A DNA stretch of 38,573 nt from Chloroflexota bacterium (GCA_028872875.1 JAGWOC010000002.1:1-38573); one strand, 5' to 3'. Shown: positions 2 to 35,418, counted from the stretch's first letter. Numbers and translations are program-made. The notes: a model not told the origin generated them from the sequence alone.

Positions 2-958
2 GCGAGCATGCCCTCCGTCCACCACCTGAACTTCGTCCTCATCGACAAGGCGATCGAGCCGCCGGACATGGCGATGAACGACTACGACATCGGCATCGGC
101 CTCGTGCGCAAGATCGAGGAGCGCGCGGCGGAGCGCGAGATGCCGGACTTCACCGACCGCAACGGCGTCGTCCACAGCCTGAAAGACATGGTCAACAAGC
201 TGACGCTGGACGGCGCGCTCCTCGACGAGGAGACGCGCATGGACGAGCAGATCCGCGACGACGCCGCCTACGGCATCCTGCCGCCCGGCAGCTCGCTCGA
301 TGTCGCCCGGCAGAAGGGCGCCATCCGCTGGACGGGCTGGGGGCTCGTCGGCCATGGGCTGGCGCAGGCGTCAACCATCAAGCCGGACGAGACGCACAAC
401 CCGTTCCGCTGGCACACCGAGGACAAGCTGCCGTACCCGACGCTGACGCGGCGGGCGCAGTTCTACATCGACCACGAGTGGTTCCTGGAGGCCGGCGAAG
501 AGCTGCCGGTGCACAAGGAGCCGCCGGGGCACGGCGGGCCGAAGCGCGCGTTCAAGATGACCAGCGGCCACAACCGCTGGAGCATCCACTCGATGAACAT
601 GACGAACAACATCATCATGAACACGCACCGCGGCGAGCCCTTCATGTTCATCAACGACAAGGACGCGAAGGCGAAGGGCATCGAGAACGGCGAGTGGGTG
701 CGGGTGGTGAGCGACGTCGGCTCGATGCTGATCACGGCGAAGCTCTCGCCGGCCGTGCGGCCGGGACAGATCATCGTCTACAACGGCTTCGAGCCGTACA
801 TGCACAAGGAGTGGTACAGCCAGGCCGACGTCGAACCGGGCCACGTCAAGTGGCTGGGGCTCGCCGGCGGCTACGGCCACCTGCAGTACCGGCCGCTGCA
901 GTGGCAGCCGATCCCGGCCGACCGCGCCGTCCACGTCGACGTGGAGAAGGTGTCATGA
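2..958 (+). CDS. Molybdopterin oxidoreductase catalytic (alpha) subunit, C-terminal part
   Basis: This is the C-terminal part (about 318 residues) of a large molybdenum enzyme of the DMSO reductase family; the reading frame is open to the left edge, so the start lies outside the window. The visible part covers the end of the catalytic core and the molybdopterin-dinucleotide binding domain. Landmarks are YPTLTRRAQFYIDH, the SGHNRWSIHS stretch, NTHRGEPF and a closing GGYGHLQYRP. All of these recur in the two full-length paralogues at 30448-33282 and 35415-38183, and it looks closer to the former. A class II beta subunit starts 43 bases downstream, so this copy is the catalytic partner of that protein. 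Class II enzymes include ethylbenzene dehydrogenase, DMS dehydrogenase and selenate/chlorate reductases. The substrate cannot be deduced, and the N-terminal cluster and any Tat signal are not visible. Confidence 0.9.
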   Translation, partial: ASMPSVHHLNFVLIDKAIEPPDMAMNDYDIGIGLVRKIEERAAEREMPDFTDRNGVVHSLKDMVNKLTLDGALLDEETRMDEQIRDDAAYGILPPGSSLDVARQKGAIRWTGWGLVGHGLAQASTIKPDETHNPFRWHTEDKLPYPTLTRRAQFYIDHEWFLEAGEELPVHKEPPGHGGPKRAFKMTSGHNRWSIHSMNMTNNIIMNTHRGEPFMFINDKDAKAKGIENGEWVRVVSDVGSMLITAKLSPAVRPGQIIVYNGFEPYMHKEWYSQADVEPGHVKWLGLAGGYGHLQYRPLQWQPIPADRAVHVDVEKVS

Positions 959-1001: not shown

Positions 1002-2036
1002 ATGGGCACGATCACCGCTTCGAAGCGACAGCTCGCGTGGGTCTTCGACCTGAACAAGTGCATCGGCTGCCAGACCTGCTCGGTCGCCTGCAAGATGCTC
1101 TGGACGCAGGATGAGGGCACCGAGCACCAGTGGTGGATGACGGTCAACACCCAGCCCGGGCAGGGCACACCGAAGGGCTGGGAGACGATGGGCGGCGGCT
1201 ACAAGGACGGCAAGGCGACGCCCGGCAAGCTGCCGACGCCCGAGGAGTTCGGCGGTGGCTGGGACTACAACTACCAGGAGGTGCTACGCGGCGGCAAAGG
1301 CCGCAACGTCCACCTCGAGAAGACGGCGGGCAGCAAGACGTGGGGCATGAACTGGGACGAAGACGAAGGTGCGGGCGAGTTCCCCAACGCCTACTTCTTC
1401 TACCTGCCGCGGCTCTGCAACCACTGCACCCAGCCCGGCTGCGTCGAGGCCTGCCCCAACGACGCGCTGTACAAGGACCCGGAGAACGGGCTGGTGCTGC
1501 GGAACGAGGACCTCTGCAAGGGCGCGCAGATGTGTGCGCGCGCCTGCCCGTACAAGAAGATCTACTTCAACCCGGCGCGCAGGGTGAGCCAGCAGTGCAT
1601 CGGCTGCTTCCCGCGCATCGAGCAGGGCGTCGCGCCGGCGTGCGTGCGGCAGTGCCCGGGCCGCGCGGCCTGGATCGGCTTCCTCGACGACGCGCACGGC
1701 TCGGTGGCCAAGCTCGTCAACCAGTGGAAAGTCGCGCTGCCGCTGCACCCGGAGTTCGAGACGAAGCCGAACGTGTACTACGTCCCGCCGCTCAGCCCGG
1801 CACCGCTGAACGCGGACGGAAGCTGGAACGAGCACGCCAACCGCATCCCTGACTCCTACCTCGAGTCGCTGTTTGGCCCCGCCGTGCACGGCGCCGTCGA
1901 CACGCTCAAGGCGGAGATGGCGAAGCGCCGCCGGGGCGAGCCGTCGGAGCTGATGGACGTGCTCGTCATGTACAAGTGGGAGGAAGCGCTCGGGCACCTG
2001 CGGCGCGACCCGGCGGAGATCGTCTGGGCCGACTGA
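1002..2036 (+). CDS. Class II molybdoenzyme iron-sulfur (beta) subunit
   Basis: The 344-residue electron-transfer subunit of the molybdoenzyme just upstream carries electrons between the molybdenum subunit and an outside partner. Four cysteine groups are visible: C20/C23/C26/C30, C139/C142/C147/C151, C172/C178/C182 and C199/C202/C214/C218. The last has the C-x2-C-x11-C-x3-C spacing typical of NarH/EbdB-type beta subunits. In the third group the position that holds Trp in NarH (C-x2-W-x2-C) is Ala175, so this cluster is expected to be [3Fe-4S] but with an unusual residue beside it. The start ATG follows a purine-rich AGGGAGAGAG. No signal peptide is seen, so it would need to be exported together with its alpha subunit, or the complex is cytoplasmic. 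No NarJ/TorD-like chaperone or heme b gamma subunit gene follows. Confidence 0.92.
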   Translation: MGTITASKRQLAWVFDLNKCIGCQTCSVACKMLWTQDEGTEHQWWMTVNTQPGQGTPKGWETMGGGYKDGKATPGKLPTPEEFGGGWDYNYQEVLRGGKGRNVHLEKTAGSKTWGMNWDEDEGAGEFPNAYFFYLPRLCNHCTQPGCVEACPNDALYKDPENGLVLRNEDLCKGAQMCARACPYKKIYFNPARRVSQQCIGCFPRIEQGVAPACVRQCPGRAAWIGFLDDAHGSVAKLVNQWKVALPLHPEFETKPNVYYVPPLSPAPLNADGSWNEHANRIPDSYLESLFGPAVHGAVDTLKAEMAKRRRGEPSELMDVLVMYKWEEALGHLRRDPAEIVWAD

Positions 2037-2609: not shown

Positions 2610-3314
2610 TCATTCTTCGCCCAGGTCGTCCAGCGAAATGAATCCCTTCCGCAGCCCCGCGACGACGGCCTCCGTGCGCGAGCCGACGCCCAGCTTGCCG
2701 AAGACGTGCGTCATGTGGACCTGCACGGTGCGGATGCTGAAGTCGAGCAGCTCGGCGATCTGGCCGTTGGTCTTGCCGCTCGCGGCCAGCCGCAGCACCT
2801 CCATCTCGCGCGCCGTCAGGAGCGCCTGGTCGCGCCCGCCTGGCGCGCCGCGCGCCTGTGACCCCTCGCCTTCCGCGAGCCTCGCCAGCACCCGCCTGAC
2901 GATGGCCGGGTGCAACACCGCCTCGCCGGCGTAGACCGCCCGGATGGCGTGGACAAGCTCGGCGGCGGGCACGTCCTTCAGGAGGTAGCCCGCGGCGCCC
3001 GCCCCCAGCAGCGCGGTCACGTAGTGGTCGTCGTCGTAGGCCGTCAGGACGAGCACCGCCGTCGGGGGACGCGCGGCCTTGATCTGGCGCGTAGCTTCGA
3101 TGCCGTTCATCACCGGCATCGCGATGTCCATGAGCACGAGGTCGGGTGCGAGCGCCGTCACGAGTGACACCGCCTCCGCGCCCGTCGCCGCTTCGCCCAC
3201 AACCTCGATGTCGTCCTCGCGCTCCAGCAACTGTCGCGTGCCCTCGCGGACGACGGCATGATCCTCGGCGATGATCAAGCGAATCGCGCGCGCCGGGTCG
3301 TCGGGGGTGGTCAC
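2610..3314 (-). CDS. NarL/LuxR-family response regulator
   Basis: A 234-residue two-component response regulator. The receiver domain (about residues 10-130) has the acidic pair E17/D18, the phospho-acceptor Asp63 in LVLMDIAMP, Thr91 and Lys113 (GYLLKD). A C-terminal LuxR-type helix-turn-helix (about 165-225) begins LTAREMEVLRLAASG and has the usual TNGQIAELL...RTVQVHM pattern. Phosphorylation by a histidine kinase should switch on DNA binding. The most likely partner is the HisKA_3-type kinase at 8880-10508, the only one in the window, which sits on the other side of the electron-transfer operon. The start is GTG at 3314; a TAGAAT box ends 6 bases upstream, so the mRNA may be leaderless. The gene converges on the His-rich gene with about 150 bases between them and no clear terminator. 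Confidence 0.95.
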   Translation of the reverse strand: MTTPDDPARAIRLIIAEDHAVVREGTRQLLEREDDIEVVGEAATGAEAVSLVTALAPDLVLMDIAMPVMNGIEATRQIKAARPPTAVLVLTAYDDDHYVTALLGAGAAGYLLKDVPAAELVHAIRAVYAGEAVLHPAIVRRVLARLAEGEGSQARGAPGGRDQALLTAREMEVLRLAASGKTNGQIAELLDFSIRTVQVHMTHVFGKLGVGSRTEAVVAGLRKGFISLDDLGEE

Positions 3315-3478: not shown

Positions 3479-3597
3479 GCGGACGGGACGGAGCTACTGG
3501 GAGTTGGACCGCATTGAGCGCGGAGGGGCCGGAACGCGAACCACAAGATCGGGAGGGCGGCGCGGCGACCTCGCCAGCAGCGAGTGACCCGCCGGGG
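3479..3597 (+). repeat. Direct repeat, copy A (about 120 bases)
   Basis: An imperfect direct repeat of 4037-4157. The core at 3556-3587 is identical over 32 bases to 4116-4147, and similarity continues to the left with a few small indels. Read from TTG 3514 the copy encodes SAEGPE...EGGAATSPAASDPPGR, the same peptide that forms the leader of the Fe-S protein encoded by copy B. Most substitutions between the copies fall in third codon positions. It contains the short inverted repeat CTCGC/GCGAG. It could be a remnant of a duplicated gene start or a member of a dispersed intergenic family. Confidence 0.8.
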
Positions 3598-3685
3598 CGC
3601 CGCCGCGGCGGCCCATGTGGCTGCGCGGTCCGTGGCCGGAGGTGGGAGTACGTCACTATCAGGCCGATTCGCGGACACACAGGCG

Positions 3686-4024
3686 GTGGTCACCATCCGC
3701 GGCGCGCAACCGGAGCCGTACTGCCCGTACTTCCGGCACGCCGTGGAGCTCATCGGCCGGCGCTGGACGGGGGCGATCCTGCGTGCGCTGCAGGCGGACG
3801 TCTGTCACTTCAGCGCGCTCGTCGGCGTCATCCCCGGCCTGAGCGACCGCATGCTCTCGGAGCGCCTGCGGGAGCTGGAAGCAGAAGGGCTCGTCGAGCG
3901 GCACGTCATCCCGGAGATGCCCGTGCGTGTCGAGTACGGCCTGACGGCAAAGGGGCGCGCGCTGGGCGAGGTGTTCGCGGCGATCAGCGCGTGGGCCGCC
4001 GCATGGCATGACGATGCGCCATGA
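3686..4024 (+). CDS. HxlR-family winged-helix transcriptional regulator
   Basis: A 112-residue DNA-binding protein of the HxlR/HTH_31 family. Recognisable are the N-terminal PYCPYFRHAVELIGRRW segment with Cys13, the winged helix around GLSDRMLSERLRELEAEGLV, and the wing ending EYGLTAKG. Length is normal for the family (about 110-130). I chose GTG 3686 because homologues begin just before this block and the frame upstream is repeat-derived and low complexity; a longer form from 3584 is possible but unlikely. Some HxlR members sense electrophiles or redox state through an N-terminal cysteine, and Cys13 sits where such a residue would. It is encoded just before the electron-transfer operon, in the same direction and ending where that operon's possible upstream starts lie, so it may control it. 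The gene is bracketed by the 120-base direct repeats. Confidence 0.88.
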   Translation: MVTIRGAQPEPYCPYFRHAVELIGRRWTGAILRALQADVCHFSALVGVIPGLSDRMLSERLRELEAEGLVERHVIPEMPVRVEYGLTAKGRALGEVFAAISAWAAAWHDDAP

Positions 4025-4036
4025 GCGGGTGGACGC

Positions 4037-4157
4037 GCGGACAGACGGAGACACAGGGAGTCGGATCACGTTGAGCGCAGAGGGACCGGAACAGGGCGAA
4101 CCACTGGACCAAGAAGGCGGCGCGGCGACCTCGCCAGCAGCGAGTGATCCGCCGGGC
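4037..4157 (+). repeat. Direct repeat, copy B (about 120 bases)
   Basis: The second copy of the repeat at 3479-3597, about 560 bases downstream. It overlaps the beginning of the Fe-S protein gene and supplies the first 30 or so codons of its leader. No ATG, GTG or TTG occurs in that frame between TTG 4071 and the Tat motif, so the Fe-S protein has to be translated through the repeat. Confidence 0.8.
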
Positions 4158-5042
4158 CGCAGGAGCGTCGGCCGCCGGCGGTTCCTCGGCGTTCTCGCGG
4201 GCGCGGGCCTCGCGACGCTGCCCATCGCGTGGGTGTTCGGGAGGGGCGGTGCCCGCTCTCCGCGGGCGGCGGCTGCCGGCGCTTCGCCGAGCGCCGCGCC
4301 GCGCCTCCGCCGCTGGTCGATGATCATCGACCTGCGGCGCTGCGATGGCTGCCAGTCCCAGAACAAGCCCCCGCTGTGCACCGCCGCGTGCATCGAAGGG
4401 CACTTCGTGCCCGACCCGATGCAATGGATCGAGGTGTACGAGCCCGACCTGCACGGCGGTGGCAGCCAGTTCGTGCCCACACCGTGCCAGCAATGCCAGA
4501 ACGCCCCGTGCACGAACGTCTGTCCCGTCGGCGCGACGTTCGCCACGCCGGAAGGCGTCGTGCTGATCGACCAGGAGCGCTGCATCGGCTGCCGGATCTG
4601 CATGGCCGCCTGCCCGTACGACCGGCGCTTCTTCAACTGGGGCGACCCGCCCGTCCCGCCCGAGGCGATGGCGATGAAGTACATGCCGGAGCACCAGACG
4701 CCCGCGATCAAGGGCACCGTCATGAAGTGCGACTTCTGCCCGGACATGGCGGGTGCCGGGCGCCTTCCCTACTGCGCGCAGGCGTGCCCCAACCACGCGA
4801 TCTACTACGGCGACCTCGAGGAAGGCATCGCGACCAACGGCGACCAGGTCGTCGACGTCAACCACTTCCTCGCCGCGAACGCCGCCTATCGTCTGAAGGA
4901 AGAGCTGGGGACGGAGCCGCGCGTCTTCTACATCCCGGGGTATGGGCAGAAGGTCGGGAGGAGTCCGTTCAAGCGGGGCCGCCTGGCAACGATCTGGCCG
5001 TGGAAGAAGGTTGCGAAGGGGAGTGAAACGTGGACGCGGTGA
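4071..5042 (+). CDS. Tat-exported four-cluster ferredoxin-like subunit (PsrB/NrfC/DmsB type)
   Basis: An electron-transfer protein of about 323 residues with four cysteine groups: C91/C94/C103/C107, C139/C142/C147/C151, C171/C174/C177/C181 and C220/C223/C235/C239, as expected for four [4Fe-4S] clusters of the DmsB/PsrB/NrfC type. Before them is a Tat signal, RRRFLG at residues 35-40 followed by a hydrophobic stretch, so it is exported folded. The start is uncertain. TTG 4071 is the last usual start before the Tat motif; GTG 4029 and ATG 4008/4014 would lengthen the leader, and all forms include repeat B. It overlaps the NrfD gene by 13 bases, the classic pairing of an Fe-S subunit with its membrane quinone-site partner. 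No catalytic molybdoenzyme subunit is adjacent, so the pair may act as a stand-alone quinone-linked module or serve one of the molybdoenzymes. Confidence 0.9.
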   Translation: MSAEGPEQGEPLDQEGGAATSPAASDPPGRRSVGRRRFLGVLAGAGLATLPIAWVFGRGGARSPRAAAAGASPSAAPRLRRWSMIIDLRRCDGCQSQNKPPLCTAACIEGHFVPDPMQWIEVYEPDLHGGGSQFVPTPCQQCQNAPCTNVCPVGATFATPEGVVLIDQERCIGCRICMAACPYDRRFFNWGDPPVPPEAMAMKYMPEHQTPAIKGTVMKCDFCPDMAGAGRLPYCAQACPNHAIYYGDLEEGIATNGDQVVDVNHFLAANAAYRLKEELGTEPRVFYIPGYGQKVGRSPFKRGRLATIWPWKKVAKGSETWTR

Positions 5043-6427
5043 CTGATCGGGCATGGGGCGTGCGTCTCGAGGACCGGGCGTTAGCCCCGTTGTCGAAGAC
5101 GAGCTGGCGGTACTGGGTGTGGATCGCGTCGCTGCTCGTCGTCATCGGCTGGGCGCTGTTCGCCTACAGCTATCAGCTCCGTCACGGTCTCATCGTCACC
5201 GGCATGCGGGACCGCATCTCCTGGGGGATGTACATCCTGACCTTCGTCTTCTTCATCGGCATCAGCCACGCCGGGACGCTGCTCTCCGCGATCCTCCGCG
5301 TCTTCAAGGCGCGCTGGCAGCTCTCCGTCACGCGCATGGCGGAGTTCATCACCGTGGTGGCGCTGATGGTGGGCGGGCTGTTCCCGCTGATCGATATGGG
5401 CCGTCCGGACCGCATCCTCAACCTCGTCTGGTACGGCCGCTGGCAGTCGCCCCTGATGTGGGACGTCTTCGCCGTGCTCACCTACCTCTGCGGCAGCACG
5501 ATCTACCTGTACTTGCCGCTCATCCCTGACTTCGCGCTTTGCCGCGACCGCCTGGGCCCGTGGGCGCCGGCGTGGAAGCGCTGGTTCTTCACCGCTGCCG
5601 CCGCGGGATGGACGGGGACGCCCCGGCAGCGCAAGGCGCTGGACCGCGCGATGACGGTGATGATGATCGTGATCATCCCGGTCGCGGTGTCCGTCCACAC
5701 GGTCATCTCGTGGATTTTCGCGATGACGCTGCGCGTGCCGTTCAACAGCACGGTCTTCGGCGCCTACTTCGTGGCCGGTGCCATCTTCTCGGGCGTCGCC
5801 GCGATCATCCTGCTGATGGCGGTGCTGCGGAAGCTCATGCACCTCGAGGAGTTCATCACGATCACCCAGTTCCGCGCCCTCGGCTTCGTGCTCGGCGGGA
5901 TGGCGCTCGTGATGGTCTACTTCAACCTCTCCGAGTACGTCACGTCCGGCTACAAGATGGAGGCCGGCGTCGCCTTCCACTTCCACGACATCATGACCGG
6001 CTACCTGGCGCCGCTCTTCTGGTTCTACATCGTCGGCGGGCTCTTCGTCCCCGTGCTGATCATGGCGCTGCCCTGGACGCGCAATATCCGGGGCATCGTC
6101 GTCGCGGCAGGGCTCGTGCTGGCCGCGATGTGGATCGAGCGCTACCTGATCGTGGTCAGCGGCTTCCGCGTGCCGCTGATGGCGTACTCCGCCCGGCCGT
6201 ACGCGCCCTCCTGGGTCGAGTGGTCGATCTTCGGCGGCGCTGCCGCACTCTTCCTGCTCATCATCTCCGTCTTCGCCAAGGTCTTCCCCATGATCTCGGT
6301 GTGGGAAGTGATGGAGCACCGCGGTCCCGAAGAAGTGGAGGTGCCGGCTCCGGCCACGGTGACCGCGCCGCCAAGGCGCGTGCCGGTGCCTGTCGCACGG
6401 TCGGTGGAGACAGGGAGCCCGCAATGA
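5030..6427 (+). CDS. nrfD: NrfD/PsrC-family polytopic membrane subunit
   Basis: A 465-residue integral membrane protein with roughly nine or ten hydrophobic helices, the first near residues 25-46 after a short cytoplasmic N-terminus. NrfD/PsrC proteins lack heme and bind quinone/quinol, exchanging electrons with the Fe-S subunit at the membrane surface. Family-like features include DRISWGMYI, ISHAGTLLSAILR and LFPLIDMGRPDR. The size matches long NrfD members found with DMSO-reductase-like or alternative-complex-III-like systems. The C-terminus is a soluble Pro/Val-rich tail. GTG at 5030 is preceded by AAGGGGAGTG, a good ribosome site. The stop overlaps the next gene's ATG (ATGA). Direction of electron flow, quinol oxidation versus quinone reduction, cannot be read here; the downstream cytochrome and cupredoxins suggest quinol oxidation toward the periplasm. 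Confidence 0.93.
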   Translation: MDAVTDRAWGVRLEDRALAPLSKTSWRYWVWIASLLVVIGWALFAYSYQLRHGLIVTGMRDRISWGMYILTFVFFIGISHAGTLLSAILRVFKARWQLSVTRMAEFITVVALMVGGLFPLIDMGRPDRILNLVWYGRWQSPLMWDVFAVLTYLCGSTIYLYLPLIPDFALCRDRLGPWAPAWKRWFFTAAAAGWTGTPRQRKALDRAMTVMMIVIIPVAVSVHTVISWIFAMTLRVPFNSTVFGAYFVAGAIFSGVAAIILLMAVLRKLMHLEEFITITQFRALGFVLGGMALVMVYFNLSEYVTSGYKMEAGVAFHFHDIMTGYLAPLFWFYIVGGLFVPVLIMALPWTRNIRGIVVAAGLVLAAMWIERYLIVVSGFRVPLMAYSARPYAPSWVEWSIFGGAAALFLLIISVFAKVFPMISVWEVMEHRGPEEVEVPAPATVTAPPRRVPVPVARSVETGSPQ

Positions 6428-7074
6428 AGACGGCCGCCATGACCTCCGTGTACCGCTCTCGCACCGTCATCGGGCTGCTCGCGCTCGTCGCGCTCGCCGC
6501 CGGCGTGGTGGCGATGGCGCCGCGGTCCGTCGCGGCGCAAACCGCGGCGAAGGCGCCGACGGCGATCGGCATCTCCGTCCCGGCGGACGCGCAGCTCGGC
6601 CAGAGCATCCTGCTGCAGGCGCGCCTCGTCGATGCGCGCGGCACGGGCATCCCCGGCGTGGACGTGCAGTTCACGAGCCCGGCGACGTTCTTGAACACGA
6701 GCGGCGACATGGTCATCGCCGACGCCATGACCGATAGCCACGGCCTGGCGGCGGCCCAGTACGAAGTGCGCCGCACGGGCAAGCTGACCGTCAAGGCCGT
6801 GTTTGCCGGCAGCGACCGGTATGCGCCGGCCAAGATCAGCGCGCCGCTGGCGGTCAGCGGCGACCGGCAGCTCTACGTGCAGGACGCGGGCGTCAAGATC
6901 CCGGGGCTCAACGCCACATCGACGCAACAGACGAGCGGCTGGCCGCACTGGGTGCTGAGCGGCTGGCCGATCGCCGCGGTGCTGCTCATCGTCTGGTCGC
7001 TCTACGGCGTTGCCGTCTTCTTCATGTCGCAGATCGTCGGCGCGGGCGAGCAGCCCGGGGAGGGAGCGCCATGA
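6424..7074 (+). CDS. Membrane-anchored periplasmic protein with an Ig-like domain
   Basis: A 216-residue protein with an N-terminal signal sequence (hydrophobic about residues 14-31, then AAQTAAKA). The middle domain (about 45-150) resembles bacterial Ig-like repeats: alternating strands, DARGTGIPGVDVQFTSP and DSHGLAAAQY. A C-terminal transmembrane helix lies around 183-205 in WPIAAVLLIVWSLYGVAVFF. It has no cysteine or heme motif, so it is probably structural, holding the cytochrome or cupredoxin near the NrfD complex. That role is inferred only from its position: it overlaps both nrfD (ATGA at 6424-6427) and the cytochrome gene (ATGA at 7071-7074), so the three are translationally coupled. 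I do not recognise a named family member. Confidence 0.85.
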   Translation: MKTAAMTSVYRSRTVIGLLALVALAAGVVAMAPRSVAAQTAAKAPTAIGISVPADAQLGQSILLQARLVDARGTGIPGVDVQFTSPATFLNTSGDMVIADAMTDSHGLAAAQYEVRRTGKLTVKAVFAGSDRYAPAKISAPLAVSGDRQLYVQDAGVKIPGLNATSTQQTSGWPHWVLSGWPIAAVLLIVWSLYGVAVFFMSQIVGAGEQPGEGAP

Positions 7075-7535
7075 ACAAGCGCTGGTACTGGAGCGCGCCG
7101 GTGATCTTCGGGGCCCTGGTCCTCGTCCTTGGTCTCGGGCTGCAGACGATCTTCGCGCGCAGCCCGTACACGCACGCGAACCTCGTCGGGGGATATGCCG
7201 CCAACTACACGCGCACCGGGCAGTCGGTCGTCGGCCCGCCGACGCCGTACGTGCCGCCCGGCCTGAGCGCGTCCGGCGCCGCATCCAACGACCCTGTAGC
7301 GCTGGGGCGCTCGCTCTTCGTGGCGCTGAACTGCGCGTCGTGCCACGGCCTGCAGGGACAGGGCAGCAACTTCACATCGCCGATCGTCGGCTTCGGGGTG
7401 AACACGCTTCAGCAGCGCACGCACAGCGGCCCGGGAGGCATGCCGGCCTACGCCGACCTCACGCCGGACCAGCTCAAGGCGCTGGTCGCGTACCTCAATT
7501 CGGTCGCAGCGTCGAAGTCCAGCCAGGCAAAGTAG
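7071..7535 (+). CDS. Membrane-anchored mono-heme cytochrome c
   Basis: A 154-residue class I c-type cytochrome. An N-terminal hydrophobic helix (about residues 8-28) with a positively charged start and no obvious cleavage site should anchor it in the membrane. After a Pro/Gly linker comes one heme-binding CASCH motif (C88, C91, H92). The probable axial ligand is Met124 in GGMPAY, and the terminal helix LTPDQLKALVAYLNSV is typical of this fold. It would carry electrons on the periplasmic side between the NrfD/Fe-S module and an acceptor, plausibly the cupredoxin lipoprotein encoded next. The gene starts inside the stop of the preceding gene, and the next gene follows 11 bases after its stop. 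Confidence 0.93.
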   Translation: MNKRWYWSAPVIFGALVLVLGLGLQTIFARSPYTHANLVGGYAANYTRTGQSVVGPPTPYVPPGLSASGAASNDPVALGRSLFVALNCASCHGLQGQGSNFTSPIVGFGVNTLQQRTHSGPGGMPAYADLTPDQLKALVAYLNSVAASKSSQAK

Positions 7536-7546
7536 GAGGAGGAGCC

Positions 7547-8650
7547 ATGCGTTCAGGTACACAGAACGGGAAGAACGGCGAAGGCGGCGAGGCCGACCTG
7601 TTCGCCGACCTCGCATCGCGCGCGGACCGGCTCACCGGACGCCGCATGACGCGCCGTGACATCCTGCGGATGGGCGGGCTGCTCGCCGGCGTCGCCGCCG
7701 TGCAGCCGCTGCTCAACGCCTGCGGCAGCGGCAGCTCCAGCTCGAGCCCGACCGCGGCAGCCACGGGCACCGCCGCGCCGCCGCCCACGGTGGCGGTCCC
7801 GGTGGCGACGGTCGCCGCTGGGGGTGGTTCGCCCGTCGCGGGGGCGACGGTCGTCAACATCAAGACCCATGAGGCCGGCAGCGCGATGGTCTACGACGTG
7901 GACAAGCTCGCCGTCCCCGCGGGCCCGGTGCAGTTCGACATCACCAACACCGGCAAGAAGATCCACGAAGTCTGGGTGTACCCGGTCCAGGATCTCGTCG
8001 CGATGCTGGCGCTCAAGCGGCAGGGCAAGACCGCACACGAGGCCGACTTCATCAAGGGCATCGCGGGGAAGGCCGAGGACATCGACCCCGGCAAGTCCGC
8101 GACGATCAACGCCACGCTCGTCCCGGGCTTCTACGAGCTCGCCTGCTTCGTCAAGGCCCAGAACCCGGACGGGACCACGTCGGTCCACTTCGACATGGGC
8201 ATGGTGAACACGATCGCCGTCACCGGCCCCGGCGGCCCCGACGCCTCCGTCACGACGCCCAGTGACACGATCAGCCTCGACATGGCTCCGGGCACGGGTG
8301 ACCTCAGCAGTTCGTGGCTGTTCCTGCCCGACCACCTGGTGGTGAAGGCGGGCACCGTCAACTTCAAGGCGAAGAACGACATGCCCAACATGAAGCACGA
8401 TGTCGTCATCTACCCGCAAGGCGACATCACCCCGCTCATCCACCAGCGCCTGGCGAACAAAGAGGACTACAGCATCATCAAGGGCCAGCTCCTGGTGGAA
8501 GACCTGGATTCGAGCCAGAGCATCGAGAAGGCCGGGAACGTGACGCCCGGCTGGTGGTACGCCGCCTGCTTCCGGGTGAGCACGCTCCCGGACGGCACGA
8601 AGTACGTGCACAGCGACCGCGGACAGCGCTTCAGCTTCCTCGCGCAGTAA
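7547..8650 (+). CDS. Tat lipoprotein with two tandem cupredoxin domains
   Basis: A 367-residue exported copper protein, with an exceptionally strong ribosome site (AGGAGGAGGAG) directly before ATG 7547. The N-terminal signal has twin arginines R36-R37 (TRRDIL), a hydrophobic run and Cys59 (LLNAC) followed by a Ser-rich linker, indicating a Tat-exported lipoprotein. Two homologous domains follow. Domain 1 (about 103-226) offers His140, Cys200, His214 and Met219 as type 1 copper ligands. Domain 2 (about 240-367) offers His284, Cys341 and His355, with Gln360 where domain 1 has Met219. Both have a 13-residue gap between Cys and the second His, much longer than in plastocyanin. A Gln axial ligand is known from stellacyanin. 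As the last gene of the operon, before a strong hairpin, it is the likely terminal carrier. Copper binding is predicted, not shown. Confidence 0.88.
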   Translation: MRSGTQNGKNGEGGEADLFADLASRADRLTGRRMTRRDILRMGGLLAGVAAVQPLLNACGSGSSSSSPTAAATGTAAPPPTVAVPVATVAAGGGSPVAGATVVNIKTHEAGSAMVYDVDKLAVPAGPVQFDITNTGKKIHEVWVYPVQDLVAMLALKRQGKTAHEADFIKGIAGKAEDIDPGKSATINATLVPGFYELACFVKAQNPDGTTSVHFDMGMVNTIAVTGPGGPDASVTTPSDTISLDMAPGTGDLSSSWLFLPDHLVVKAGTVNFKAKNDMPNMKHDVVIYPQGDITPLIHQRLANKEDYSIIKGQLLVEDLDSSQSIEKAGNVTPGWWYAACFRVSTLPDGTKYVHSDRGQRFSFLAQ

Positions 8651-8663
8651 GCGGTCGCCCGGC

Positions 8664-8699
8664 AGGGTGGGGCAGCCGCGTGCGCGGCGGCCCCGCCCT
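8664..8699 (+). terminator. Strong GC hairpin after the cupredoxin gene
   Basis: AGGGTGGGGC at 8664-8673 pairs with GCCCCGCCCT at 8690-8699 (10 pairs, one G-T), with an inner stem GCCGC/GCGGC around a 4-base loop. It starts 14 bases after the cupredoxin stop codon and probably ends the operon before the kinase gene. No T-run follows, so it may work with Rho or only protect the RNA end. Confidence 0.6.
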
Positions 8700-8808
8700 A
8701 CCCCGCCTCGGAGCCCCTCTCCGCCCGGCACCGCGCGCATGCCGGCTGTATGCACACCTCGCTGTCCACGGCGGCCCAGACGATCGGCCGCCGTGCTCCG
8801 CGCGGGGG

Positions 8809-8814
8809 TACAAT
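8809..8814 (+). promoter_or_regulatory. Possible -10 box of the sensor kinase gene
   Basis: TACAAT (five of six to TATAAT) lies 65 bases before the kinase ATG and after the operon hairpin. The same TACAATT string precedes the methylcrotonyl-CoA carboxylase operon on the other strand. No good -35 is present. Confidence 0.3.
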
Positions 8815-8879
8815 TGACTGAGCGCGACGCCGCGCCCAAACGCGCGGAGGGGCAGCGCAGGCTGTCCGCGGGATGTTCG

Positions 8880-10508
8880 ATGATTGCTGAACGGGTCGAC
8901 GCGCCGCCGGTTGCGCCGCACCACTGGGCGGCAGGCCGCCTGGTGCGCGACGTGTTCGTCCCGCTGAGCCGCTTCCCGGACCGGCTGCGCGACCGCCGTT
9001 TCTGGAACATCCAACTGATGGTGCTGGCCGCCACCATCCCGCACTACGCCATCGAGATTGCGGGCTTCACCAACCCCTTCGAGACGTTCCACGGCCTCGC
9101 CATCACCCTCTACGTGATCCCCCTGCTCTATGCCGCGCTCTCGTTTGGCTGGGAGGGCGCCATCCTGACCGCGCTCTGGCTGGTCTTCCTGACATCGCCG
9201 AGCATGTGGATCTGGCATCGCGGCTCGTTCCACTGGCTCACGGAGGTCGGCCAGCTCGCCATCACGCTGCCCGCAGGCATCATGGTCGCCTGGCGCGTAG
9301 ACCTCGAATCGAAGCAGCGGCAGCGGGCCGAGCGGATGAGCGCGAGGCTGAGCACGCTCAAAGACGTCGGAGAGCGGCTCAGCCGCACGATGGACGTGGA
9401 ACGCGTGCTGCCGACCGTCCTGGAGCGCCTGCTGGCCGTCCTGCCGGCGCAGGTCGTGTGGCTCCGGCTCGCCCCTTCGGCCTGGAACCGGGAGTGGGTC
9501 GCCGTCATCAAGTCGCGCGAACGACAGCCGGCGGACGGGATCCCCGATGAAGAGCTGCAACGGCTTGCCGAGGAACGCCGCGAGCCCGTGCGGTTCGCTG
9601 ATCGCACCGCGGTACCGCTCGCCCGCGAAGGGCCCGTGGTCGGCGTCCTGGGTGTCGTGTGGGCCGCTGCCGCGCCCGTCGCCGAGGAGCAGGTGGAGTT
9701 CCTCGGCGCGGTCGCGCATGAGATCCATGTCGCGGTCGAGAACGCCCGCCTGTACCGCGAGCGCCAGGAGAGCCTCCAGACGTACGCCCGCCAGGTCACG
9801 CAGGCGCAGGAGGACGAACGCTTGCGCCTCGCCCGCGAACTGCATGACGAGACCGCCCAGGAGCTCGTGCACCTCGTCCGCCGACTCGAGCGGCTCCGGG
9901 AGGGCGCGCCGGCGGATGGCCGCGCCTCAGAGCAGCTCGAAGACCTCCTCCAGTTGTCGCGCGGCATCCTCAAGTCGGTCCGCCGCTTCAGCCGCGACCT
10001 GCGGCCGTCCGTGCTCGACGACCTGGGCCTCGTGCCGGCGATCGAGCTGGCGGTGGAAGAGGCGAACGCGCGGCTCTCTGACTGCGCGAGCCTCGAGGTA
10101 TCCGGGACGCCGCGCCGCCTCGGCTCGGCCGCCGAGGTCGCCCTCTTTCGCATCGCGCAGGAGGCGCTCCACAACGTCGAGAAACACGCGCAGGCGACGC
10201 GCGCCACGGTGAAGCTCGTCTTCTTGCCCGACTGCGTGCGCCTCGCGGTGGAAGACGATGGCCGCGGGTTCGACGTGCCCGAGAACGTCTCCTCGCTCGC
10301 GCGCCTGGGCAAGCTCGGCGTCCTCGGCATGAAGGAGCGGGCGGAGCTGGTCGGCGGGTCGTTCTCCCTCGTGTCGGCCGCGCACAACGGCTGCACGGTC
10401 AGCGTGACCGTCGAGACGCCGGGCGCTCCGGAGACGGCGCCGGCCGCCGCTGCCCGATCGTCCCAGGCGCGATCACTGCCAACGCCCGCCGCCGGCCGTT
10501 CGCCCTGA
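8880..10508 (+). CDS. Membrane sensor histidine kinase (NarX/DegS-like, HisKA_3)
   Basis: A 542-residue sensor kinase. Roughly four hydrophobic helices occupy about residues 40-145, followed by a GAF-like sensory domain (about 165-300). The HisKA_3 dimerisation domain has ARELHDETAQ with phospho-acceptor His322. The HATPase_c domain has the N-box-like ALHNVEKHA, DDGRGFD and GVLGMKERAELVGG. It should sense a signal in or near the membrane or through the GAF domain and phosphorylate a NarL-type regulator, most likely the one at 2610-3314. ATG 8880 is chosen because sequence upstream in frame is Pro/Arg-rich and overlaps the terminator; TTG 8814 is a less likely alternative. Gene order suggests it controls the electron-transfer operon lying between it and its presumed regulator. 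It ends 20 bases from a convergent gene. Confidence 0.92.
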   Translation: MIAERVDAPPVAPHHWAAGRLVRDVFVPLSRFPDRLRDRRFWNIQLMVLAATIPHYAIEIAGFTNPFETFHGLAITLYVIPLLYAALSFGWEGAILTALWLVFLTSPSMWIWHRGSFHWLTEVGQLAITLPAGIMVAWRVDLESKQRQRAERMSARLSTLKDVGERLSRTMDVERVLPTVLERLLAVLPAQVVWLRLAPSAWNREWVAVIKSRERQPADGIPDEELQRLAEERREPVRFADRTAVPLAREGPVVGVLGVVWAAAAPVAEEQVEFLGAVAHEIHVAVENARLYRERQESLQTYARQVTQAQEDERLRLARELHDETAQELVHLVRRLERLREGAPADGRASEQLEDLLQLSRGILKSVRRFSRDLRPSVLDDLGLVPAIELAVEEANARLSDCASLEVSGTPRRLGSAAEVALFRIAQEALHNVEKHAQATRATVKLVFLPDCVRLAVEDDGRGFDVPENVSSLARLGKLGVLGMKERAELVGGSFSLVSAAHNGCTVSVTVETPGAPETAPAAAARSSQARSLPTPAAGRSP

Positions 10509-30447: not shown

Positions 30448-33282
30448 TCAGGTCGCGGGCGAGCGCCTTTGCCGCCGTACCCGCGCACCGTCCGCTGCGT
30501 GGTCCGCCCGCTCGAAGTCGACGCGCGTCGCGCGGTCGACGGGCACCGGCTGCCACATGCCGGGCCGGTAGCGGATGTGGCCGTAGCCGCCAGCGAGGTG
30601 CAGCGGCTTGACCATGCCCGGCTCGACGTCCATTGGCCCCCGCCAGCCGGGGAACTGCGCCGGGTCCCAGCCGTTGTACATCACCACCTGCCCCGGCCTG
30701 ACGCCGGGCGTCAGCTTCGCCATGACGACGAACTCGCCCATGTCGTTGAAGACGCGGATGGCCCCGCCTTCGCGCACGCCGCGGCGCGCCGCGTCGGCCG
30801 GGTTGACGAAGATGAAAGGCTCGCCGCGGTGCGTCGCCAGCATCAGCCGGTTCGTGACGTTCGACGAGTGGATGCTCCAGCGCATGTGCCCGCTCGTCAT
30901 CTGCAGCGGGTACTCGCCGCCCATCGCCGGCGTCTCCTTGTGGGCGGGCAGCGCCTCCCCGGCCTCCAGGAACCAGGGATGGTCGATGTAGAACTGCGCG
31001 CGGCGCGTCAGCGTCGGGTACGGGAACTTCTTCTCGACGTGGTCGCGGTTCGGCACGTGCGTCTCGTCGGCGTGGATCTCGGACGCCTGCCACACGGCGA
31101 GGGGCGACGCGCCCCAGCCTTCGACGCGCACGTAGCCGGTCTTTCGCATGCGCCCGAGCGTGCTCGCCTTCGGGATGTTCCCCGCGACCGCGCTGTCGCG
31201 GATCCACTCATCGACGAGCCGCTCATCGGAGCGATACTGGTCGCCTTGCGTGTACTGCTCGCCGATGTCGGCCCAGTTCCGCACCGTGCCGCCGGCGTCG
31301 GTGAACGAGGTCAGGCCGCGCGCCCGCGCCCGCTCGCTGACGCGGCGCGCCAGCAGTTGGAAGATCTCCCACTCCGGCTTCGCCTCGCCCGCCGGCGCGA
31401 CGGCGCGGTCCGCGATCAGCACCTGCATGACGTGCGGCGTCGCGTAGTGCACGTTCAGCTTCTCGCCGTGGTTCGCCGCGGGCAGGAGGATGTCCGATTG
31501 CAGCGCCGTCGTCGTCATGTGGAAGTCGACCGTCGCCACCATCTTCAGCATGGGCCAGAACTCCCCGAGGAGCATGTTCTGGCCGCCGCGCGTGCGCCGC
31601 AGGATGTTGCCGCCGGCCTCGATGAATACGCGCGGCGGCACGCTGGCATCGTTCATGCCGCTCCACCAGCCGGCCTCGCGCGCCTCGCGGAAGTACTCGT
31701 CGAAGGAGCGGGGCAGCGTCGGGTCCCCCCAGTTGCGGCGGTTCCACAGCTTGCCGTAGCCGCTATAGCGCTGGAGCAACATGAACGCCGGCACGATCTT
31801 GCGGTGCATCGGCACCATGCTCAGCAGGTCCAGCGTCGCCAGCTCGTCGGTGAGCGTCGGGTCGCCGGCCCGCAGCATGTCGATGCCCATCTGGCGGAGC
31901 GCCAGGACCTCGCGCGCCCCCGCGGTTCCGGGTTTGTTCTTCATCCCGGAGATAAACGGCCCGTCGAATGGCCCGGCGCTCCAGCTCCGGGCGCCCGTGC
32001 CCTTCTTCCCCCAGTTGCCCGTCAGCGCGAGGAAGAGCAGCATCGAGCGCTCCATCAGGTCGCAGTGGTAGTACTTGCACGAGTTGAAGCCGAGCAGGAT
32101 CGCCGTCTTCCTCTTCGCGCAGTCGCGCGCCAGCGCCCGGATCACGTCCGGATGGGTCCCGCACGACGCCGACGCCGCCTCCGGGCTGTACGCCTTGAGG
32201 TGATCGCGGAGCCGCGCGAAGACCGGGCGGACGCGCACGCGCTCGCCTCCGGCGAGCCGCACGGCGGCGCTCGCCTCGAGCGACGGCACGACGCGCCGCC
32301 AGCGCAGGCTGCCGCGGTCGGCGGGTGCCGGCTCCCCGGTCTTGCTGTCGAGCGCGTAGAACTGGTCGTCGCGCCCTCCCTCGCGCAGGTCGGACTCGCG
32401 CAGGAAGCGGCCCGTGTCCTCGCGCACCAGCAGCGGCAGGTCCGTCTGCTCGCGCACGAAGCGCGCGTCGTACAGCCCCTCGTCGATGACGACGCGGCAC
32501 ATCGCCAGCGCCAGCGCGGCGTCGGCGCCGGGGCGCACCGGCACGTACGTGTCCGCGTGCATCGCCGACGGGCTGACGTCGGGCGCGATGGTGTAGACGC
32601 GCGCGCCGCGATACCGCGCCTCCGCGATGTAGTGGTAGAAGGGGATGCGCGTGTACGCCGGGTTCATGTGCCAGATCAGGATGCGGTCGGCGTGGAACCA
32701 GTCGTCCACCGAGCTGACGTTGAACTTGCCGTACGTCAGGTACATGCCGGAGTTGAAGTCGTTGATCACCCCTTCGAGGTCGATCGCCACGCCTCCGACC
32801 ATGCCGATGAAGCGGGCGATAGCGACCACGCCCACCATGCCGCCCTGCGCCGGCGACGTCTCGTAGAAGATCGACTCCGGTCCGGTTTCCTCCGCCGCGT
32901 CGATGACGGCGTCGGCAACGGCATCGAGCGCGTCATCCCACGAGATGCGCTCCCACTCGCCGGAACCGCGCGGGCCGGCGCGCCGCATCGGGTAGAGGAT
33001 GCGCTCGGCGGCGTGATGCGTGGCGCTCCAGCCGGCGCCCTTCTGGCACCCCATCGGGTTCATGTCGGGGACGCCGGGCTCGACGACGCCGTATGTGCCC
33101 GCCTGCTCCTCGCGCCAGATCACGCCGTCGCGGACGTAGGCGCGGAACGGGCAGTTACCGGGATAGCAATCGACGCAGTGGCTGCTCCAGACGACGTCGT
33201 CCCAGCGCAGTTCGTTTTCGTATCCGGTCGATTGCTGAGGCTCGCCGGCGCGGGCCGGGCGGACGGCGCGGGTTCGTGGCAT
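30448..33282 (-). CDS. Class II-like molybdopterin oxidoreductase catalytic subunit (944 aa)
   Basis: A full-length molybdenum enzyme of the DMSO reductase family, 944 residues from ATG 33282. The N-terminal cluster-binding segment has His35-Cys36, Cys39, Cys44 and Cys79 (HCVDCYPGNCPF...GCQKG), so either His or Cys36 could be the first ligand. Asp175 in VINDFNSG sits where class II enzymes have the molybdenum-binding aspartate. The C-terminal half has the cofactor-binding SGHMRWSIHSSN and GGYGHIRYRP. No twin-arginine signal is visible, so it looks cytoplasmic unless carried by a partner. No beta subunit is adjacent. GGGAGGT (complement of 33290-33296) lies 7 bases before ATG 33282, which rules against GTG 33291. 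It is the last gene of a four-gene operon with the 922-residue paralogue and E1 alpha/beta. Substrate unknown. Confidence 0.93.
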   Translation of the reverse strand: MPRTRAVRPARAGEPQQSTGYENELRWDDVVWSSHCVDCYPGNCPFRAYVRDGVIWREEQAGTYGVVEPGVPDMNPMGCQKGAGWSATHHAAERILYPMRRAGPRGSGEWERISWDDALDAVADAVIDAAEETGPESIFYETSPAQGGMVGVVAIARFIGMVGGVAIDLEGVINDFNSGMYLTYGKFNVSSVDDWFHADRILIWHMNPAYTRIPFYHYIAEARYRGARVYTIAPDVSPSAMHADTYVPVRPGADAALALAMCRVVIDEGLYDARFVREQTDLPLLVREDTGRFLRESDLREGGRDDQFYALDSKTGEPAPADRGSLRWRRVVPSLEASAAVRLAGGERVRVRPVFARLRDHLKAYSPEAASASCGTHPDVIRALARDCAKRKTAILLGFNSCKYYHCDLMERSMLLFLALTGNWGKKGTGARSWSAGPFDGPFISGMKNKPGTAGAREVLALRQMGIDMLRAGDPTLTDELATLDLLSMVPMHRKIVPAFMLLQRYSGYGKLWNRRNWGDPTLPRSFDEYFREAREAGWWSGMNDASVPPRVFIEAGGNILRRTRGGQNMLLGEFWPMLKMVATVDFHMTTTALQSDILLPAANHGEKLNVHYATPHVMQVLIADRAVAPAGEAKPEWEIFQLLARRVSERARARGLTSFTDAGGTVRNWADIGEQYTQGDQYRSDERLVDEWIRDSAVAGNIPKASTLGRMRKTGYVRVEGWGASPLAVWQASEIHADETHVPNRDHVEKKFPYPTLTRRAQFYIDHPWFLEAGEALPAHKETPAMGGEYPLQMTSGHMRWSIHSSNVTNRLMLATHRGEPFIFVNPADAARRGVREGGAIRVFNDMGEFVVMAKLTPGVRPGQVVMYNGWDPAQFPGWRGPMDVEPGMVKPLHLAGGYGHIRYRPGMWQPVPVDRATRVDFERADHAADGARVRRQRRSPAT

Positions 33283-33289
33283 CGGGCGC

Positions 33290-33296
33290 ACCTCCC
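33290..33296 (-). promoter_or_regulatory. Ribosome binding site deciding the start at 33282
   Basis: GGGAGGT on the minus strand, 7 bases before ATG 33282. It overlaps the alternative GTG at 33291, making that start unlikely. Confidence 0.75.
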
Positions 33297-34420: not shown

Positions 34421-35418
34421 GCGCGCGCCTCGCCGTAGACGTCTTCCAGGATGGCGGCGAGGCCCGGTGCCGTGCCGCTCTCGGCGAACGCGACGGCCGC
34501 GTCCAGGCGGCGCTCCGCCTCGGCGCCGATCTCGTCGAGCTGCTTCACGGCGACGCCGTGCCGCTCTCGCAGGTACTCCGCGCAGCGGATGATGCAGTCG
34601 CGCGCGCGGTACCACTCGACCTCCTCCGCGGACCGATAGCGTGCCGGGTCGCCGACGAAGTGGCCGAAGTAGCGGTAGGTCTCGCACTCGAGCAGCACGG
34701 GCCCGGCGCCCGAGCGGGCGTGTGCCACCGCCTCGCGCGCCTTCCCGTACACGTCGAGCACGTCCTGCCCGTCGGCGATCAGCCCTGGCATGCGATAGCT
34801 CGCCGCGCGGTCGGCCACGTGCTCGGCGGACAGCGCGTACTCGACGGGCGTCGCCTCGCCGTAGCGGTTGTTCTCGCAGACGAAGACGACCGGCAGCTTC
34901 CAGACGGCGGCCAGGTTGAGTGACTCGTGAAACGCGCCGATGTTCGACGCGCCATCGCCGAAGAAGGCCACGGTGACCCGGCCCGAGTCCGTGAGTTTCG
35001 CCGTCAGCGCCGCGCCGCAGGCGATCGGCAGCCCGGCGCCGACGATGCCGTTCGCGCCGAGCATGCCGCGCCGGAAATCCGCGATGTGCATCGACCCGCC
35101 CTTGCCGTGGCAGGTGCCGGTCGCCTTGCCGAACAGCTCAGCCATCATCTCGCCCGGGTCGACGCCCTTCGCCAGGCAGTGGCCGTGGCCGCGATGTGTG
35201 GATGTCACGTAGTCGTCGTCGCGCAGGGCCGCGCAGACGCCGGCCGCGACCGCCTCCTGTCCGACGCAGAGATGGCCGACGCCGCTGAACGCGCCCTTGA
35301 GCACGAGCGTCGCGACGCGCTGGTCAAAGGCGCGGATCAGCGCCATCGTGGCGTACAGGCGCAACACGTCGTCGCGCGATGGCGGCGCGCCCGCGGCCGC
35401 TCGCGTCTCGCCGCTCAC
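34417..35418 (-). CDS. Acetoin/2-oxoacid dehydrogenase E1 alpha subunit
   Basis: The 333-residue alpha subunit, binding thiamine diphosphate through GDGASNIGAFHESLNLAAVW (GDG at 154-156) and CENNRYGEATP (NN at 183-184). STHRGHGHCLAKG and GKGGSMHIAD are typical of AcoA/PdhA. The length and the short N-terminus fit acetoin:2,6-dichlorophenolindophenol oxidoreductase alpha chains more than the longer branched-chain E1 alpha. The GTG start at 35418 overlaps the stop of the 922-residue molybdoenzyme (GTGA at 35415-35418), so the two are translationally coupled. Without a local E2/E3 it either shares a core complex encoded elsewhere or works as a stand-alone TDP lyase or dehydrogenase. Confidence 0.93.
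   Translation of the reverse strand: MSGETRAAAGAPPSRDDVLRLYATMALIRAFDQRVATLVLKGAFSGVGHLCVGQEAVAAGVCAALRDDDYVTSTHRGHGHCLAKGVDPGEMMAELFGKATGTCHGKGGSMHIADFRRGMLGANGIVGAGLPIACGAALTAKLTDSGRVTVAFFGDGASNIGAFHESLNLAAVWKLPVVFVCENNRYGEATPVEYALSAEHVADRAASYRMPGLIADGQDVLDVYGKAREAVAHARSGAGPVLLECETYRYFGHFVGDPARYRSAEEVEWYRARDCIIRCAEYLRERHGVAVKQLDEIGAEAERRLDAAVAFAESGTAPGLAAILEDVYGEARA

Follow-up and report, generated by a model that had tools for sequence, protein, structure and literature searches.

A conserved Fe-S/NrfD operon with an Ig-like subunit and an exchangeable outlet in Chloroflexota, a candidate quinol:periplasmic-carrier oxidoreductase related to alternative complex III

What could an operon do that encodes the iron-sulfur (Fe-S) and membrane subunits of a quinone-linked enzyme, yet no catalytic subunit? 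The question is raised by five adjacent genes in a stretch of 38,573 nucleotides from a Chloroflexota bacterium (GCA_028872875.1 JAGWOC010000002.1:1-38573; "the window" hereafter denotes this whole stretch), which begins at the end of contig G000:C59. Gene calls confirmed the five genes at the positions given in an earlier note made from the sequence alone, and they reproduced the tight coupling described there:

4071..5042, plus strand: Fe-S subunit of the PsrB/NrfC/DsrO/ActB2 type, bearing a twin-arginine signal and the 16 Cys of four clusters (Pfam, Cys conservation)
5030..6427, plus strand: NrfD/ActC-type integral membrane quinone subunit (Pfam NrfD, ActC match, quinone-site residues)
6424..7074, plus strand: immunoglobulin (Ig)-like periplasmic domain with a C-terminal membrane helix, family hallmark (gene order, structure prediction, reciprocal search)
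7071..7535, plus strand: membrane-anchored monoheme cytochrome c with an N-terminal helix, a PYTHANL motif, CASCH and a distal GMPAY (Pfam, conservation)
7547..8650, plus strand: twin-arginine translocation (TAT) lipoprotein that carries two cupredoxin domains with type-1 copper sites, exchangeable fifth gene (Pfam, ligands, structure prediction)

The Fe-S gene starts at TTG 4071 or at an in-frame ATG at 4008 and overlaps the NrfD gene (GTG start at 5030) by 13 bases, ATGA overlaps of 4 bases each link NrfD to the Ig-like gene and the Ig-like gene to that of cytochrome c, and 11 bases separate the latter from the cupredoxin gene. Four of the products have clear Pfam assignments (Fer4_11, 1e-16; NrfD, 4.5e-37; Cytochrome_CBB3, 1.6e-11; Cupredoxin_1, 1.1e-9, in gene order), while the Ig-like protein matches Big_1 at 1.4e-7 and 32.0 bits, slightly under the Pfam cut-off of 34.9. 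The hairpin that had been proposed to end the operon is indeed present 3' of the cupredoxin gene, but it folds no more strongly than shuffles (z -1.34) and is not followed by a T-run; it is weak evidence for a terminator, and we do not regard it as a clear one.

Homologous loci were gathered by tblastn and profile searches, and the counts given below refer to 46 non-redundant loci from Chloroflexota and Actinomycetota unless stated otherwise. The Fe-S gene adjoins NrfD in 45 of these, the Ig gene follows directly downstream of NrfD in equally many, and the order FeS-NrfD-Ig is kept in 45/46 loci across the two phyla, with a cytochrome c of the same profile downstream in 31. Judged by this conserved gene order, a chance grouping of the operon genes is excluded. 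Searches with three query proteins found no molybdenum (Mo)-type subunit within 3 kb at 45 of the 46 loci; the sole exception, L086 in genome G054, has a related NrfD, an Fe-S protein and a Mo-like subunit and is also the sole locus without the Ig gene. The view of the earlier note that Fe-S protein and NrfD form a quinone-linked module without a catalytic subunit thus extends to the homologues, and loss of a Mo subunit in the window only can be discarded, since homologous operons likewise have none.

The Ig-like protein is predicted to fold as a single beta-sandwich with a C-terminal membrane helix (AlphaFold; predicted local distance difference test, pLDDT, 86.5). For an independent check, 301 Chloroflexota genomes were searched with a profile made from the Ig subunit only (A1), and 21 of them gave strong full-length matches. 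NrfD lies directly upstream in all 19 inspected full-length loci besides the window (at L111 as a fused NrfD/Fe-S frame), some of which duplicate loci already collected by the other searches, and in none of 10 weak generic Ig matches. Because of this contrast, the Ig-like protein is, by gene context, the hallmark of the family. In the 46 loci and this reciprocal search, the Ig and cytochrome genes do occur together with the NrfD pair, contrary to the outcome that the earlier note had named as refuting its reading. Gene fusions occur as well: the Ig gene is joined to the cytochrome in the Actinomycetota loci, whereas in L031 and L088 its fusion partner is a cupredoxin domain. Apparently, the four-gene core of TAT-exported 16-Cys Fe-S protein, NrfD, anchored Ig-like protein and anchored cytochrome c represents a recurrent and hitherto undescribed complex. 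Searches of the open-access literature brought up no account of an NrfD complex with an Ig subunit, though one may have been published elsewhere, and a published NrfD survey contains no group of such complexes.

The cofactor and quinone sites of the core are well preserved. All 16 Cys of the Fe-S protein are kept across the aligned homologues, and among solved structures NrfD comes closest to the ActC subunits of alternative complex III (ACIII; 6btm_C, 9e-54; 6f0k_C, 1e-51), with an alignment that spans 400 residues. Among the quinone-site residues named for the NrfD family (PMC8076601), S140 (equivalent to ActC Ser164) is kept at 98% and D145 (ActC Asp169) at 96% in the 46-locus NrfD alignment, and D122, at the position of the protonating His139 of ActC, is Asp in 42 and His in 4 sequences; Asp is likewise found at this position in DsrP, QrcD and HybB (PMC8076601). 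The window thus combines an NrfD fold, an adjacent four-cluster Fe-S protein and quinone-site Ser and Asp/Glu/His residues, the set of features that marks the NrfD/PsrC superfamily. The best NCBIfam matches of the Fe-S/NrfD pair are DsrO and DsrP, both under cut-off, and at L034 (7959-10256) a single frame encodes NrfD and, after it, the Fe-S protein.

On the periplasmic side, most homologous cytochromes keep CxxCH, the distal GMPx[YF] and a membrane-proximal PYTHxNL motif. The fifth protein of the window is predicted to contain two cupredoxin-like domains (pLDDT 64, a modest value) that both retain His, Cys, His and Met or Gln as conserved copper ligands; its top fold matches, two-domain laccases and nitrite reductases, were rejected as assignments since it has type-1 ligands only and no HxH type 2/3 copper motifs. 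Double cupredoxins occupy the fifth position in the window, G001, G038, L041/G221, G071 and G252 and other cupredoxins in L032, L033 and G040. Elsewhere, this position holds an EB_dh-type heme-b protein with NxrC as its best solved relative (G014, G017, G231 and four Actinomycetota loci), a c-type lipoprotein (L031 and L156) or pairs of uncharacterised lipoproteins. Cupredoxin operons fall mainly into one supported NrfD subclade and EB_dh operons into another; the type of the fifth gene broadly follows the NrfD tree. Two or three operon copies are present in 8 of the 21 genomes with Ig-profile matches, and the three copies of G221 differ in their partners. Across these loci, the fifth gene is exchangeable, and the copper partner proposed earlier, which the window does contain, is just one of several. 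Two unusual arrangements may be added. In a distant subclade (L089, L150, L151-L153, L157-L159), NrfD-Ig is followed by paired uncharacterised lipoproteins, one of about 260 aa and one of about 530 aa with TIG-like repeats, in up to three tandem pairs, and an Actinomycetota operon (L037, 1483-5869) includes multiheme Ig-rich cytochromes, with a second EB_dh gene divergent upstream.

The sequences themselves show the gene content and its conservation, the cofactor ligands, the residues of the quinone site and the exchange of partners; we infer complex formation, direction of electron flow, the role of the Ig-like protein, regulation, the final acceptor and any proton pumping. With moderate confidence, we propose that the product of the operon is a small membrane-bound relative of ACIII that acts as a quinol:periplasmic-carrier oxidoreductase. 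NrfD would oxidise menaquinol near the outward side of the membrane and pass the electrons through the four Fe-S clusters of the exported subunit to the anchored heme c, from where they would reach a dedicated periplasmic carrier, here the double-cupredoxin lipoprotein, and finally an acceptor that is probably a cytochrome oxidase or a periplasmic reductase. The Ig-like protein may serve as a membrane-anchored scaffold where ACIII has its large ActA/ActB1 arm. The outlet would be set by the fifth gene, which varies from lineage to lineage and in some cases also among the copies of a single genome; the alternatives are a plastocyanin/sulfocyanin-like protein, a heme-b protein of the EB_dh/NxrC type, additional hemes c and other lipoproteins. 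Copper and heme carriers are usually high in potential relative to menaquinol, and quinol oxidation is favoured because of these usual potentials together with the kinship to ActC. Several observations weigh against this proposal: ActC Asp253, a proposed quinol ligand, is replaced by Ile in the NrfD of the window, the Asp at the protonation site is shared with the quinone reducer QrcD, and the cytochrome c is recovered by profile at only the 31 loci mentioned above. Furthermore, the host genome encodes a cytochrome bc-type gene and a cytochrome oxidase, and nearly all other close carriers also have bc or ACIII, so that another quinol:cytochrome c enzyme would seem superfluous if its acceptor were not special. 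Because the host has a bc complex elsewhere in its genome, replacement of complex III was rejected, and the complex is predicted to supplement complex III as an accessory branch.

The genes around the operon bear both on its regulation and on possible partner enzymes:

2..958, plus strand: ethylbenzene-dehydrogenase-like Mo alpha subunit, truncated by the contig end to its C-terminal part (2ivf_A 7e-59; TIGR03479 1e-74)
1002..2036, plus strand: type II dimethyl sulfoxide (DMSO)-reductase beta (Fe-S) subunit (TIGR03478 1e-141)
2610..3314, minus strand: NarL/LuxR-type response regulator, conserved neighbour (Pfam; 46-locus survey)
3584..4024, plus strand: HxlR-type regulator just upstream of the operon (Pfam)
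8667..10508, plus strand: membrane histidine kinase (GAF, HisKA_3), conserved neighbour (Pfam; 46-locus survey)

A kinase and a NarL-type regulator lie within 8 kb at 32 of the 46 loci, and such a two-component system may switch the operon on. The type II alpha/beta pair 2-3 kb upstream had been missed in the earlier reading; it is separated from the operon by the response regulator on the opposite strand, and by the locus survey its genes are non-conserved neighbours and not operon members. Two further type II alphas are encoded on the minus strand of the window (30448-33291 and 35415-38183). The 3.4 Mb host genome (G000) shows a large expansion of ethylbenzene-dehydrogenase-like type II DMSO-reductase alphas to more than 10 genes, and among the 301 Chloroflexota genomes sampled a full copy is present in just one other. 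Two side observations concern the upstream region. A direct repeat of about 110 bases (3503-3613 and 4060-4173; 82% identical) flanks the HxlR gene, and these two are its only long copies in the genome; an RNA leader in the repeated segment was considered and rejected, with no Rfam match and a folding that does not surpass that of shuffles. A very His-rich open frame of 77 residues (2226-2459), whose product is possibly metal-binding, lies between the beta gene and that of the response regulator.

Could this operon instead be the dedicated quinone and electron-transfer module of the type II (ethylbenzene-dehydrogenase-like) enzymes encoded upstream? The alpha and beta genes at 2-2036, the expansion of alphas in the genome and the presence of EB_dh (gamma-type) genes inside the operon in G014, G017, G231 and Actinomycetota would fit, as would the distribution of full type II alphas within the order of the window, where they occur in 5/5 operon carriers and 3/13 non-carriers (one-sided Fisher p about 0.007, computed by hand and with relatives that are not independent). 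Yet no type II alpha was found near any homologous operon, a regulator gene stands between the two units in the window, and a full type II alpha is found in just 2/301 Chloroflexota genomes compared to 21 with the operon. As a general partner, type II Mo enzymes therefore fail at the phylum level, and because of these numbers the association is, on genome content, local to the order of the window and not general; we regard this explanation as distinctly improbable.

The same Mo enzymes are relevant to a second alternative, in which the same complex runs in reverse as in Qrc, with periplasmic reductants feeding electrons through heme c and Fe-S clusters to menaquinone. These reductants would be carriers with heme b, heme c or copper that receive their electrons from hydroxylases or from the oxidation of metals or sulfur, and indeed all operon carriers in the order of the window have hydroxylase-like Mo enzymes of type II, which release electrons on the periplasmic side. 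The Asp that NrfD shares with QrcD/DsrP at its protonation site and the bc complex already present in the host point the same way. On the other hand, the potentials of copper and heme-b carriers are as a rule well above that of menaquinone, which would make quinone reduction uphill, and the NrfD groups with the quinol oxidiser ActC, while QrcD forms a separate clade (PMC6303296); reversed flow is thus rather unlikely, if still the rival that we take most seriously. Finally, Fe-S protein and ActC-like NrfD amount to two pieces of ACIII and might be the degenerate remnant of it or of a complex iron-sulfur molybdoenzyme (CISM) after loss of the other subunits. A specific new Ig subunit and intact cofactor ligands at 45/46 loci in two phyla, genomes with both the operon and ACIII, and several genomes with two or three intact copies make such decay highly improbable.

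If the proposed quinol oxidation is true, the operon would give these bacteria an additional, compact route by which electrons leave the quinone pool for periplasmic carriers, and its exchangeable last subunit would show how a single quinone module can be wired to different acceptors. More tentatively, the family could represent a further widespread class of quinol:cytochrome/cupredoxin oxidoreductases beside bc1/b6f and ACIII, whose minimal core is an ActC-type Fe-S/NrfD pair, with an obligatory Ig scaffold, plug-in periplasmic outlets (copper, heme b or heme c) and several differently wired copies per cell. Since ACIII has beside it a simpler ActC-type complex that lacks the large ActA/ActB arm, the family may also illuminate how ACIII came to be assembled. 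Family genes are likely labelled just NrfD or polysulfide reductase by similarity, a misleading annotation that recognition of the complex would correct.

As far as its subunits can tell, the family matches no named respiratory complex found in the open-access literature. Cytochrome bc1/b6f shares the proposed reaction, from quinol to cytochrome c or a cupredoxin, but has an unrelated fold, and Pfam finds neither cytochrome b nor a Rieske protein among the five operon genes. The CISM enzymes PsrABC, TtrABC and NrfABCD share the exported Fe-S subunit and NrfD but have a catalytic Mo/W subunit that the operon lacks; the heme-b gamma subunit (EB_dh) of type II DMSO reductases is absent from the operon of the window and present in operons of a related subclade. 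With QrcABCD and DsrMKJOP (QrcCD and DsrOP modules), the operon has in common the Fe-S/NrfD pair and the Asp at the quinone-protonation site, but multiheme QrcA/DsrJ, QrcB and DsrMK are missing and an Ig subunit and a cupredoxin are found instead; the QrcD clade is separate from ActC (PMC6303296).

ACIII (ActABCDEF) is the closest comparison. Both have an ActC-type NrfD, an outward-facing four-cluster Fe-S domain, a monoheme cytochrome c and no Mo, and both sometimes adjoin an oxidase cluster: COX2 and then COX1 follow the operon on the same strand in G034, and oxidases frequently follow ACIII gene clusters (PMC5928083). NrfD trees place the Ig-bearing NrfDs beside, not inside, ActC; a larger tree sets them apart from ActC, with a single clade not rejected (approximately unbiased test, p-AU 0.15) and an unresolved root. 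The NrfD of the exceptional locus L086 branches near ActC and is possibly a link between CISM enzymes and ACIII. The earlier claim that the complex differs from both bc1 and ACIII therefore holds for its subunits but needs to be tempered by its evident kinship to ACIII. The operon has a single NrfD, an Fe-S subunit that is a free TAT protein, a universal Ig-like subunit, an exchangeable copper or heme-b partner and NarL-type regulators alongside, and it lacks ActA, ActB1, ActD and ActF; by Pfam, neither the Mo-like domain of ActB1 nor the multiheme ActA is found among its genes, and ActD (PF11821) has no match anywhere in the host genome. Because ActA, ActB1 and ActF are absent from the operon and ActD from the genome, the predicted complex is related to ACIII but is not a member of it.

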